From: Candidatus Dojkabacteria bacterium
Lineage (GTDB): Bacteria > Patescibacteriota > Dojkabacteria > B142 > JAFGMG01
Assembly (NCBI GenBank): GCA_016927655.1
Contig: JAFGMG010000011.1
Location: 1-33,189 of the forward strand
DNA length: 33,189 bases
Reading direction: 5' to 3'
Position numbers and translations under genes: made by a program. Shown here one piece after another: positions 850 through 6,223 of the stretch. The notes below the pieces were generated by a model. That model was not told the DNA's origin. It saw nothing but the letters and a program-made list of their open reading frames with translations, and did not search any database. Numbering within the stretch: the first letter of the stretch is position 1; each line of letters starts with the position of its first letter.

Positions 850-2760
850 TTAGTTGATCCTGTGCCTATCATACAATTCATAAATACCTGTAGACCAGTT
901 TCTTCTATAAGTTTCATAGAAAACGATATCGTCATGAGTTCTAATTTTGACATAAGTGCTTCTTGCCCCCATATCTCCCAGGCCTTGAGAATGCGCTGTA
1001 TTCATTTGCCAAATAGTATTGTAATGATACGCGCTGTATTTGTGCGTATGACCGCAAAAATATGCCACTACATTATAATCGGCCAGTAATTGCCAGAATG
1101 CATCCCTATTTGACACATATTTATTTAAGCTGTCTGTTGTGTGGCCAGAAGTACCGTTTTCCTGGTCGGGCTGAGGATAGGCTGGTTCATGTCCGACTAC
1201 GAAAATTAAATCTTTGTCTGTGGCAGCAAGATCCGAAGCAAGCCAATTGTAAACCGGAGTAGTGATATCACCATCGGTGTGAGTATCACTGACAGAGTCA
1301 CAATATACATTAAGCGCTATAATGTGCATATTCCCATGATCAAAAGAATAGGTGGTTTCAGGACATGTAGCAGGCCCCGGATTTACCGTTCCGTAATCAA
1401 ATGCCCGCAATATATCCATATTTTCGCCATAATATGCCTCACTTCCGTGGCCCGGGAGCTCATGATTCCCCATAACCGGATACCAGGGGAATTCAGCACC
1501 CATGTAAGTTTCAACGCTCCATATTGTATTTGTCATTGAAGGCATATCACCAGCCGTCATAAAGAAATCCGAATCATCCGCAGCTATTGCTTCAGCCACA
1601 CCTCTGAAATAATCTGTAGTATCGTATATCCCGGGACCTGTACGCTCCTGCATATCAGACGCTATATGGAAATTGTATTCGGTGCTTTCTGGATCATCAG
1701 GATTTGAAGCAAGCCAGACATCTCCTCCTACATCACTTACAAATGTCACAATATCATCTTTGAACATGTCATTGTCAAAGTCCCCAACACGCGGGATTTC
1801 ATCATAAGGAGCAAAATAATCATGCCATTTAGAAGATCCTTCAAAAGAGCTGCTGCCATTACTCAAAGCGACCCAGACATCCCCGCCGCCATCACTTACG
1901 AAAGTAACTATATCATCAAGACCGTCATTATCGAAATCACCTATTGCCGGGACCTCGTCGTATGGAGCAAACCAATCATTCCATTTCGAAGCAGTTCCAA
2001 AACCCGTACCGCCATCATTTAGAGCGACCCAGACATCTCCCCAACCATCACTTGTAAATGTCACTATATCATCATAGCCGTCATCATTAAAATCACCAAT
2101 TGCAGGGATTTCGTCGTTTGGTGCAAAATAACTGTGCCATTTGGAGGATGTCCCAAACCCAGTTCCGCCGTTATTTAGGGCGACCCAGACATCCCCGCCG
2201 CCGTCACTTACAAAAGTCACAATATCATCGTATCCATCATTATTGAAATCCCCGATAAGTGGAATTTCGTTGTTTGGTGCAAACCAGCTGTGCCATAGAG
2301 AGGCGCTTGATTGAAAACTCGCCTCTCCGTCACCAAGCGCAACCCAGACTTTAGAACTTCCATCTCCTGTAAATGTCACTATGTCATCTTTAAAGTGGTC
2401 TCCATCAAAATCTCCGACTAGTGGTGTTTCGTCATTTGGCGCAAACCAATTGTGCCATTTAGAAGAAGTCCCGAAACTTGATCCTGTGTTTGCAGCAACC
2501 CAGACATCTCCATATTTATCACTTGTAAATGTGACTATATCGTCTAAGCCATCATGATCAAAGTCTCCGACAAGAGGTATCTCGTCATTTGGTGCAAAGT
2601 AGCCATGCCACTTACTTGATGAGTTAAAAGATGTGATAGATTGAGGGGATGCGTTATTCGAATAGACAATCCCGCCATTATTATAAATTTCTGGCAGAAT
2701 GAAACACAAAAATACCCCAAATACCGCTAAAGATGTAAAAAAGAATATTCTCTTCTTGAT
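850..2760 (-). CDS. Secreted protein with FG-GAP/VCBS-like repeats and a C-terminal calcineurin-like metallophosphoesterase domain
   Basis: Repeats of the form SSKWHxYFAPNDEIPxxGDFDxDGxDDIVTFxSDxxGDVWVA; phosphoesterase motifs TAGDMPS, GNHELPGH, VVGHEPAY, CGHTHKYS. The track start (TTG, 2709) cuts a signal peptide; the frame reads IKKRIFFFTSLAVFGVFLCFILPE from 2760. Confidence 0.85.
   Translation of the reverse strand: MKKRIFFFTSLAVFGVFLCFILPEIYNNGGIVYSNNASPQSITSFNSSSKWHGYFAPNDEIPLVGDFDHDGLDDIVTFTSDKYGDVWVAANTGSSFGTSSKWHNWFAPNDETPLVGDFDGDHFKDDIVTFTGDGSSKVWVALGDGEASFQSSASLWHSWFAPNNEIPLIGDFNNDGYDDIVTFVSDGGGDVWVALNNGGTGFGTSSKWHSYFAPNDEIPAIGDFNDDGYDDIVTFTSDGWGDVWVALNDGGTGFGTASKWNDWFAPYDEVPAIGDFDNDGLDDIVTFVSDGGGDVWVALSNGSSSFEGSSKWHDYFAPYDEIPRVGDFDNDMFKDDIVTFVSDVGGDVWLASNPDDPESTEYNFHIASDMQERTGPGIYDTTDYFRGVAEAIAADDSDFFMTAGDMPSMTNTIWSVETYMGAEFPWYPVMGNHELPGHGSEAYYGENMDILRAFDYGTVNPGPATCPETTYSFDHGNMHIIALNVYCDSVSDTHTDGDITTPVYNWLASDLAATDKDLIFVVGHEPAYPQPDQENGTSGHTTDSLNKYVSNRDAFWQLLADYNVVAYFCGHTHKYSAYHYNTIWQMNTAHSQGLGDMGARSTYVKIRTHDDIVFYETYRRNWSTGIYELYDRHRIN
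1698..2619 (-). repeat. Six tandem ~50-aa FG-GAP/VCBS-like repeats within the CDS (approximate bounds)
   Basis: Six repeats visible in the translation, each with a DxDxDGxxD-like calcium-loop signature. Confidence 0.8.
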
Positions 2761-2841: not shown

Positions 2842-3438
2842 CTAAAGGCGTTTTAGTGTTTTAAAATCTTGCTGTAGGACCTTATACATTGCTGGATTGT
2901 AAGCCGCCACGGCCGGATGATAAAGAGGAACAACCAAGACCCCTCCATATCCTGCAATTGCTTGAAATATTTGTCCATGAGATTGAGAAATTTTTTTCAT
3001 CTGTCCTGGGAATTTGTATGCTTTAGTAATAAATTCCATCGGGAATTTCCCGAGAGTGACTATTATTTTTGGTTTTATGATATTTATCTGGCGCAGCAGG
3101 TAAGGGCCGTAAATTTCAATTTCTTCCGGCTTTGGGTTACGATTGTCTGGAGGGCGATCTTTTACAATATTTGTCAGATAGACGTCTTCCCTTTTCAGAT
3201 CTATCGATTCAAACAGCCTGTCAAGAATTTTTCCTGCCTGACCGACGAACGGATACCCGCTTTCTGCCTCTTGTGTTCCTGGAGCCTCTCCTATCATGAC
3301 TATTTTTGCATAATGGCTCCCCTGACCTAGGACAGGATGATACTTATTTGCAATTCTGTATTCGTACAAAGGAGATTTTGAAAGATTCCATATCTCATCC
3401 CTGATTTGCCTGAGTTTGTCAGTTCGATCGTCTTTCAT
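2842..3438 (-). CDS. Family-4-like uracil-DNA glycosylase lacking cysteines
   Basis: GEAPGTQEAESGYPFVGQAGKILD, YLTNIVKDRPPDNRNPKPEEIEIYGPYLLRQI, IKPKIIVTLGKFP and PLYHPAVAAYNP motifs of UDG superfamily family 4. Confidence 0.85.
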   Translation of the reverse strand: MKDDRTDKLRQIRDEIWNLSKSPLYEYRIANKYHPVLGQGSHYAKIVMIGEAPGTQEAESGYPFVGQAGKILDRLFESIDLKREDVYLTNIVKDRPPDNRNPKPEEIEIYGPYLLRQINIIKPKIIVTLGKFPMEFITKAYKFPGQMKKISQSHGQIFQAIAGYGGVLVVPLYHPAVAAYNPAMYKVLQQDFKTLKRL

Positions 3439-3501: not shown

Positions 3502-3576
3502 TGGCTCCGGGTGCAGGATTCGAACCTGCAACCTCTCGATTAACAGTCGATGGCTCTACCATTGAGCTAACCCGGA
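3502..3576 (-). tRNA. tRNA-Asn (anticodon GTT), CCA encoded
   Basis: Reverse strand TCCGGGTTAGCTCAATGGTAGAGCCATCGACTGTTAATCGAGAGGTTGCAGGTTCGAATCCTGCACCCGGAGCCA folds as a cloverleaf, with anticodon loop CTGTTAA and GGTTCGAATCC T-arm. Confidence 0.95.
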
Positions 3577-5657: not shown

Positions 5658-5930
5658 CTAATTATAAACTTGATTGTGCGTTCCGATATCTAGAAGAAAG
5701 ATACAATCTTCTGTTTCATAGTAAATCATTCTGTAGTCACCCGTTATTCTGATTGCCCTCTCTCCAACCATACTACCTTCCAAAGCATGATCGTCCAGTA
5801 GTGGATTTGTTTTATCTTTAAGAAACATTCCATATCTTTCTATGAATTTCTTGTGCAGCTTTTCATTTGGTTTAATTCTTTTATTGAAATGTTTCTGGAA
5901 AGTTTTATGATGCTCTATTCTTTTATTCAA
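5658..5930 (-). CDS. RelE/YafQ-like type II toxin
   Basis: HKTFQKHFNKRIKPNEKLHKKFIERYGMFLKDKTNPLLDDHALEGSMVGERAIRITGDYRMIYYETEDCIFLLDIGTHNQVY resembles RelE-fold mRNA interferases; 4-nt overlap with the upstream antitoxin. Confidence 0.75.
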   Translation of the reverse strand: MNKRIEHHKTFQKHFNKRIKPNEKLHKKFIERYGMFLKDKTNPLLDDHALEGSMVGERAIRITGDYRMIYYETEDCIFLLDIGTHNQVYN

Positions 5931-6223
5931 CTCAGAGCTTTAATGGATTCTTCGGCTGTGTATGACCTTACTTTCCCTCTTTTTCTATCTCCCTCGTGTT
6001 CTTCAATCATATGTTTGTACCTTGCTGCTGCCTCAGGGCTCAACCTCTCTCGTGAATCAATGAATACATTATAGACTCCATTTACATAGCCACTCAAAAA
6101 CACCCTTGTGAGCTCTTGTAGAGAGGAAAAGCCTTCTTTTTCGGCCTTCTCTTCTGCTTTTTCTCTGAGAGTCTTGACCATCGGAACCTGAAATATTGAT
6201 TTATCGTTATTACTAGTAGACAT
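5927..6223 (-). CDS. Antitoxin partner of the RelE/YafQ-like toxin
   Basis: 98 aa, charged, short RHH-like N-terminus (FQVPMVKTLREKAEEKAEKEGFSSLQELTRVFLSGYV); immediately upstream of and overlapping the toxin. Confidence 0.65.
   Translation of the reverse strand: MSTSNNDKSIFQVPMVKTLREKAEEKAEKEGFSSLQELTRVFLSGYVNGVYNVFIDSRERLSPEAAARYKHMIEEHEGDRKRGKVRSYTAEESIKALS

Follow-up and report, generated by a model that had tools for sequence, protein, structure and literature searches.

A cysteine-free family-4-type uracil-DNA glycosylase of a Dojkabacteria genome that has probably dispensed with its iron-sulfur cluster

Our analysis suggests that a gene in the window, by which we mean the whole 33,189-nucleotide stretch of Candidatus Dojkabacteria DNA that was analysed, very probably encodes a working uracil-DNA glycosylase (UDG) that evolved from family-4 enzymes with a [4Fe-4S] cluster and has itself given up that cluster; both activity and the absence of iron are predicted. 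The enzyme belongs to a widespread clade, within a wider decay of the ligand site in Patescibacteria, which refines the reading first made of this DNA.

Results

The open reading frame starts with ATG, runs uninterrupted from 3438 to 2842 on the minus strand and encodes 198 residues, none of them Cys. A tRNA-Asn gene (3502-3576, also on the minus strand) lies upstream of it, and the genome is 0.91 Mb in size and 97% complete. The gene and its ligand positions, the latter placed by alignment to the S. tokodaii family-4 structure 4zbx, are:

2842-3438, minus strand: gene for the candidate cluster-free family-4-type UDG, 198 aa (open reading frame and translation, profile matches, AlphaFold2 model)
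3382-3384, minus strand: L19, in place of cluster ligand Cys 1
3373-3375, minus strand: S22, in place of cluster ligand Cys 2 (Ser in 19 of the 23 clade sequences described below)
3157-3159, minus strand: D94, in place of cluster ligand Cys 3, VKCRPP having become VKDRPP (Asp in 23/23 clade sequences)
3109-3111, minus strand: Y110, in place of cluster ligand Cys 4 (Tyr in 23/23 clade sequences)

The lack of Cys is unremarkable by itself, because the Cys content of the window's proteins averages 0.55%, so that about 1.1 Cys would be expected in 198 residues and the probability of finding none is about 0.33; zero Cys per se was ruled out as a surprise on this ground. What goes beyond chance is the replacement of all four ligand positions, with D94 and Y110 fixed throughout the clade in independent assemblies. 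The N-terminus aligns along its whole length with those of relatives, so the CxxC segment has been substituted and not truncated, and at ligand positions 1 and 2 the clade carries L, F, A or N and S, A or T, respectively. The original prediction had described a 198-residue protein without Cys, in which the CxxC position reads NLSKSPLYEYR and VKCRPP reads VKDRPP, and had left the strand unstated; the translation agrees with it in length and composition and contains both strings exactly, and the alignment with 4zbx confirms the loss at both sites.

Elsewhere in the window, a YafQ-type toxin gene (PF15738; 5658-5930, minus strand) overlaps a small upstream open reading frame (5927-6223, minus strand) that has no Pfam match and is likely to encode the antitoxin, and positions 850-2709 (minus strand) encode a Calcineurin-like phosphoesterase with FG-GAP repeats and repeated sequence units.

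The protein scores 177.9 bits against the TIGR00758 (UDG_fam4) profile, for which the cut-off is 125.3, and 111.3 bits against the Pfam UDG profile; its 200.6 bits against NF040953 (Arch_udg, the NCBIfam type-4 UDG equivalog) fall below the cut-off of 250. The nearest solved sequence is that of 4zbx (E 4.5e-41). An AlphaFold2 model built on 29 sequences (mean pLDDT 93.4, pTM 0.90) shows that this sequence is compatible with the family fold, a model score being no proof of stability. The best PDB match found for the model by Foldseek is again 4zbx (TM 0.88/0.91, rmsd 1.6 Å), and the top six entries are all family-4 UDGs (TM 0.81-0.91), with UdgX next at a TM of about 0.7. In the tree described below, the clade to which the protein belongs is nested among four-Cys family-4 sequences. 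The defining feature of family 4, four Cys that bind a [4Fe-4S] cluster, is absent, the positions being held by L19, S22, D94 and Y110, and for this reason we class the protein with a family-4-derived lineage that lacks the cluster and not with the standard members. Judged by its sequence, it would stand outside family 4 by cofactor, but by descent it belongs inside it.

The three active-site motifs were located by alignment and by reference to mutational work on T. thermophilus (Tth) UDGa (PMC5387724):

3277-3291, minus strand: motif 1, GEAPG, residues 50-54, corresponding to Tth E41-G42
3139-3156, minus strand: motif 3, RPPDNR, residues 95-100, with N99 corresponding to Tth N89 (Asn in 23/23 clade sequences)
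2911-2919, minus strand: motif 2, HPA, residues 174-176, with catalytic H174 corresponding to Tth H155

That work names E41, G42, E47, F54, N80, N89 and H155, and the equivalents here are E51, A52, E57, F64, N90, N99 and H174, all seven of which are kept, position 52 being Gly or Ala in the family. Within the clade E51, E57, F64, N99 and H174 are each present in 23 of 23 sequences and N90 in 22, and the position of H174 is His in every sequence compared. In our alignment A1 the invariance of residues 80-87 is partly an artefact, because DLKREDVY was a search pattern; the set obtained by searching phylum and class genomes is free of that bias. The original view of the protein as family-4-like, with catalytic-type motifs remaining, is upheld by the TIGR00758 score, the match to 4zbx, the fold, the placement in the tree and the intact active-site positions and motifs, and the structural modelling proposed along with it returned the family-4 fold with 4zbx closest.

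To collect relatives we used 35 GTDB contigs and searched 86 genomes belonging to the class and 380 belonging to the phylum; sequences were taken from about 175 genomes. D94 and Y110 are common to 23 sequences, namely those of the window, Roizmanbacteria, an unclassified bin, members of 12 Patescibacteria families and five Chloroflexota. In trees built without the ligand columns, and without the sequence L033, which the automatic alignment had mis-scored as CCCC, these 23 form one clade (support 98/89). Its sister is a four-Cys group (support 99/86; joint branch 100/98), and the remaining members of the larger group around the two are also four-Cys, so that the direction of change is loss of cluster ligands and one inherited event explains the clade. 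The alignment and phylogeny that had been proposed as a check on the cluster-free reading thus recover a supported zero-ligand clade with a four-Cys sister. Two further features came from the comparison of sequences:

3337-3348, minus strand: clade-specific four-residue insertion, residues 31-34, separating the former CxxC segment from the core
3265-3267, minus strand: A58, adjoining catalytic E57; almost all members outside the clade have Asp here

The insertion is present in the clade and absent from 61 of 61 four-Cys and 123 of 123 other sequences compared, and position 58 is Ala in 22 of the 23 clade members and Asp in 60/61 and 117/123 of those two sets. Selection on the clade, as measured in its Chloroflexota members, is purifying, with dN/dS between 0.055 and 0.081 among these relatives of the window gene. 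Misbinning of the Chloroflexota copies is unlikely: their genomic context is Chloroflexota-like, and in one case the contig is 660 kb long, has a GC content of 58.8% and carries neighbouring genes for CorA, an RNase D-type protein and pantothenate kinase. In GTDB family f29 both the cluster-free clade and the four-Cys sister type are present (L076 of genome G134 as against L080 of G097 and L122 of G117), which suggests horizontal exchange; L122 also has an insertion of about 20 residues near VYICN.

The 207 rows of the tree comprise 61 sequences with four Cys, 30 with Cys-Cys-His-Cys (CCHC), 4 with another three-Cys set, 41 with two, 25 with one and 46 with none, in a sampling tilted toward sequences close to the window UDG, so these phylum fractions are not population estimates. 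Parsimony over these rows gives 28 state changes, with eight for the zero-Cys state alone, at least four of which are forced by well-supported branches. The hypothesis that all zero-Cys forms go back to one origin was rejected (AU p ~1e-81), and so was a shared origin for those zero-Cys rows that lie outside the D94/Y110 clade (p 6e-5). The ligand set has thus broken repeatedly across Patescibacteria, with convergent replacements by Y, H, F or D at position 3 and by Y or F at position 4.

Several observations accompany this survey. The 30 CCHC rows (including L010, L081, L082, L128, L163 and L190) could represent a His-ligated [4Fe-4S] cluster or a step toward loss; over the aligned columns the L081 protein, from the phylum set, is identical to the Berkelbacteria UDG L010, and on this basis the phylum of the window was taken as Patescibacteria. 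In the window's own order, genome G001 encodes a zero-Cys family-4-type UDG (L051, with IEVY at the ligand positions) that lies far from the window's clade in the tree and is a separate loss, and this genome keeps SufB/D and the endonuclease III cluster motif. Endonuclease III homologues without the C-terminal four-Cys cluster motif are found in relatives at L220 (G071), L238 (G073), L244 (G052), L240 (G077) and L219 (G027), and L218, L224, L226 and L228 lack it in part; in G052, G071 and G073 the family-4-type UDG is also down to two Cys. Family-4-like UDGs related to that of the window are encoded in 79 phage records, for example MW202455.1, LR756511.1 and MW462191.1, all at less than 60% identity.

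The window's genome encodes SufB/D, a radical-SAM protein of the MiaB type and an endonuclease III that carries CKAKKPDCENCVLNDIC, matches PF10576 and has its cluster motif intact, which together indicate that the cluster loss is specific to the family-4-type UDG. A loss forced by absent Fe-S assembly was rejected for this genome, given its SufB/D and its intact endonuclease III motif. The genome also has a second UDG, a family-1-type Ung with a GQDPYHG motif. Among 77 Patescibacteria families, SufB/D is found in 2 of 22 zero-ligand families as against 20 of 55 others (Fisher p=0.024), and intact versus broken ligand sets set against SufB/D give p=0.075 at the family level. The correlation between ligand loss and SufB/D loss is present at the row level and partly at the family level, but we do not claim it, a tree-aware pair test having only four usable pairs.

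Discussion

A cluster-free enzyme that has lost its iron dependence, as originally predicted, is the reading that has the best support: the protein retains the fold and every catalytic position although none of the four ligands is left, selection in its relatives is purifying, and the four-Cys sister group shows that the change was a loss. Cys-to-Ser mutants of the Pfu and Afu family-4 UDGs are reported to lose only about 40% of their activity and keep about 60%, and the cluster is held mainly to stabilise the enzyme, through a loop (PMC5295032). Since these mutants are mostly active, a natural enzyme with packing in place of the cluster staple is plausible. Among the points that weigh against this reading are the NF040953 score and the D58A replacement beside catalytic E57 that is peculiar to the clade. 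Uracil would be excised by the family-4 route, with H174 stabilising the leaving uracil, N99 positioning the water, N90 and F64 holding the base and E57 excluding thymine. L19, S22, D94, Y110 and the 31-34 insertion may now hold together, through packing and hydrogen bonding, the two loops once stapled by the cluster. The selective gain would be freedom from iron and from cluster assembly, the cluster being presumably structural and not catalytic.

An active enzyme is also compatible with a loss that was caused by genome reduction, the organism or the ancestor of the clade having become unable to make Fe-S clusters and the enzyme merely tolerating it. The scarcity of SufB/D in zero-ligand families speaks for such a cause, yet we consider it rather unlikely because the window's genome has SufB/D, the MiaB-type protein and the endonuclease III cluster motif. 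The second, family-1-type UDG of this genome would allow drift to a non-excising role, in which the protein would bind DNA containing uracil or another deaminated base as a reader, a cross-linker or an enzyme of altered specificity, the cluster having disappeared along with the original function and uracil repair being left to Ung. The clade's D58A replacement could be taken in the same sense, but the intact catalytic set (H174, N99, N90, E57 and F64) argues against such drift, as do the absence of the UdgX signatures, the purifying selection and the complete retention of motifs 1-3 across the clade, and we regard this alternative as quite improbable.

It could also be argued that a metal centre persists through other ligands (D94, Y110, H42, H34), with another metal such as Zn or as a centre shared between the subunits of a dimer. 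In the clade D94 and Y110 never vary and H42 is present in 19 of 23 members, and the CCHC state of other lineages implies that unusual ligation may occur in the family; however, the protein is without any Cys, the residues at positions 1 and 2 of the clade are non-ligating or poor ligands, and H42 is also found in the four-Cys sister group, all of which make a persisting centre highly improbable. A decaying gene or an assembly artefact is hardly credible, for apart from the missing Cys no point favours it, and the open reading frame is intact, the catalytic residues are retained, identical replacements occur in 23 sequences from independent assemblies and the dN/dS of relatives is well below 0.1. 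A working, cluster-free UDG is the reading that we prefer.

The role of [4Fe-4S] in repair glycosylases is disputed between structure only and long-range redox sensing of damage, and the A. fulgidus family-4 UDG is among the proteins for which redox activity on DNA has been reported, according to the account of it in the review PMC9266487. We regard as evenly poised the broader proposal that Patescibacteria glycosylases have shed the cluster repeatedly and stepwise, the family-4-type UDG many times and endonuclease III in part of those lineages, at times by way of a His-ligated CCHC state, while staying active; clusters would thus be dispensable structural staples and not required redox sensors. 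A natural cluster-free clade with a close four-Cys sister, and with independent repeats, would make the role of the cluster testable by comparison and not by mutants alone. The clade would also supply iron-independent UDGs and indicate how bacteria with reduced genomes may economise on metal cofactors.

The original prediction had allowed that a cluster-free family-4 clade might already be on record. No natural lineage of this kind, and no earlier description of such a clade, was found in the open-access full-text literature, in which family 4 appears as cluster-containing enzymes, beside laboratory mutants and clusterless MutYs.

Among known systems, the family-4 UDGs (UDGa; S. tokodaii 4zbx, T. 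thermophilus 1ui0, T. maritima 1vk2) share with the window UDG the fold, motif 1 GE(A/G)PG, motif 2 HPA, the motif 3 Asn corresponding to N99 and the uracil pocket, whereas the window UDG differs in its four replaced cluster Cys, its 31-34 insertion and D58A. UdgX, a family-4-derived uracil-DNA cross-linker, is of the same fold group (phmmer E ~1e-16) but is more distant from the window UDG than the family-4 enzymes are, both by sequence and by fold; its motif A GEQPG and R-loop KRRIH (PMC10359453) are not matched, the window UDG having GEAPG and no R-loop His, and the score against the UdgX profile TIGR03914 is 85.2 bits for a cut-off of 190. The clusterless MutYs, as they are presented where PMC11078426 cites Trasvina-Arenas et al. 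2016 (pmid 26613369), provide a precedent as a glycosylase lineage in which the [4Fe-4S] cluster was lost, but with an unrelated helix-hairpin-helix fold, and are an analogue and not a homologue of the window UDG. The Cys-to-Ser mutants of the P. furiosus and A. fulgidus family-4 UDGs (PMC5295032) reportedly retain most activity with a disrupted cluster site; in contrast to these laboratory proteins, the window UDG is a natural variant that has inherited the loss of all four ligands together with further remodelling.
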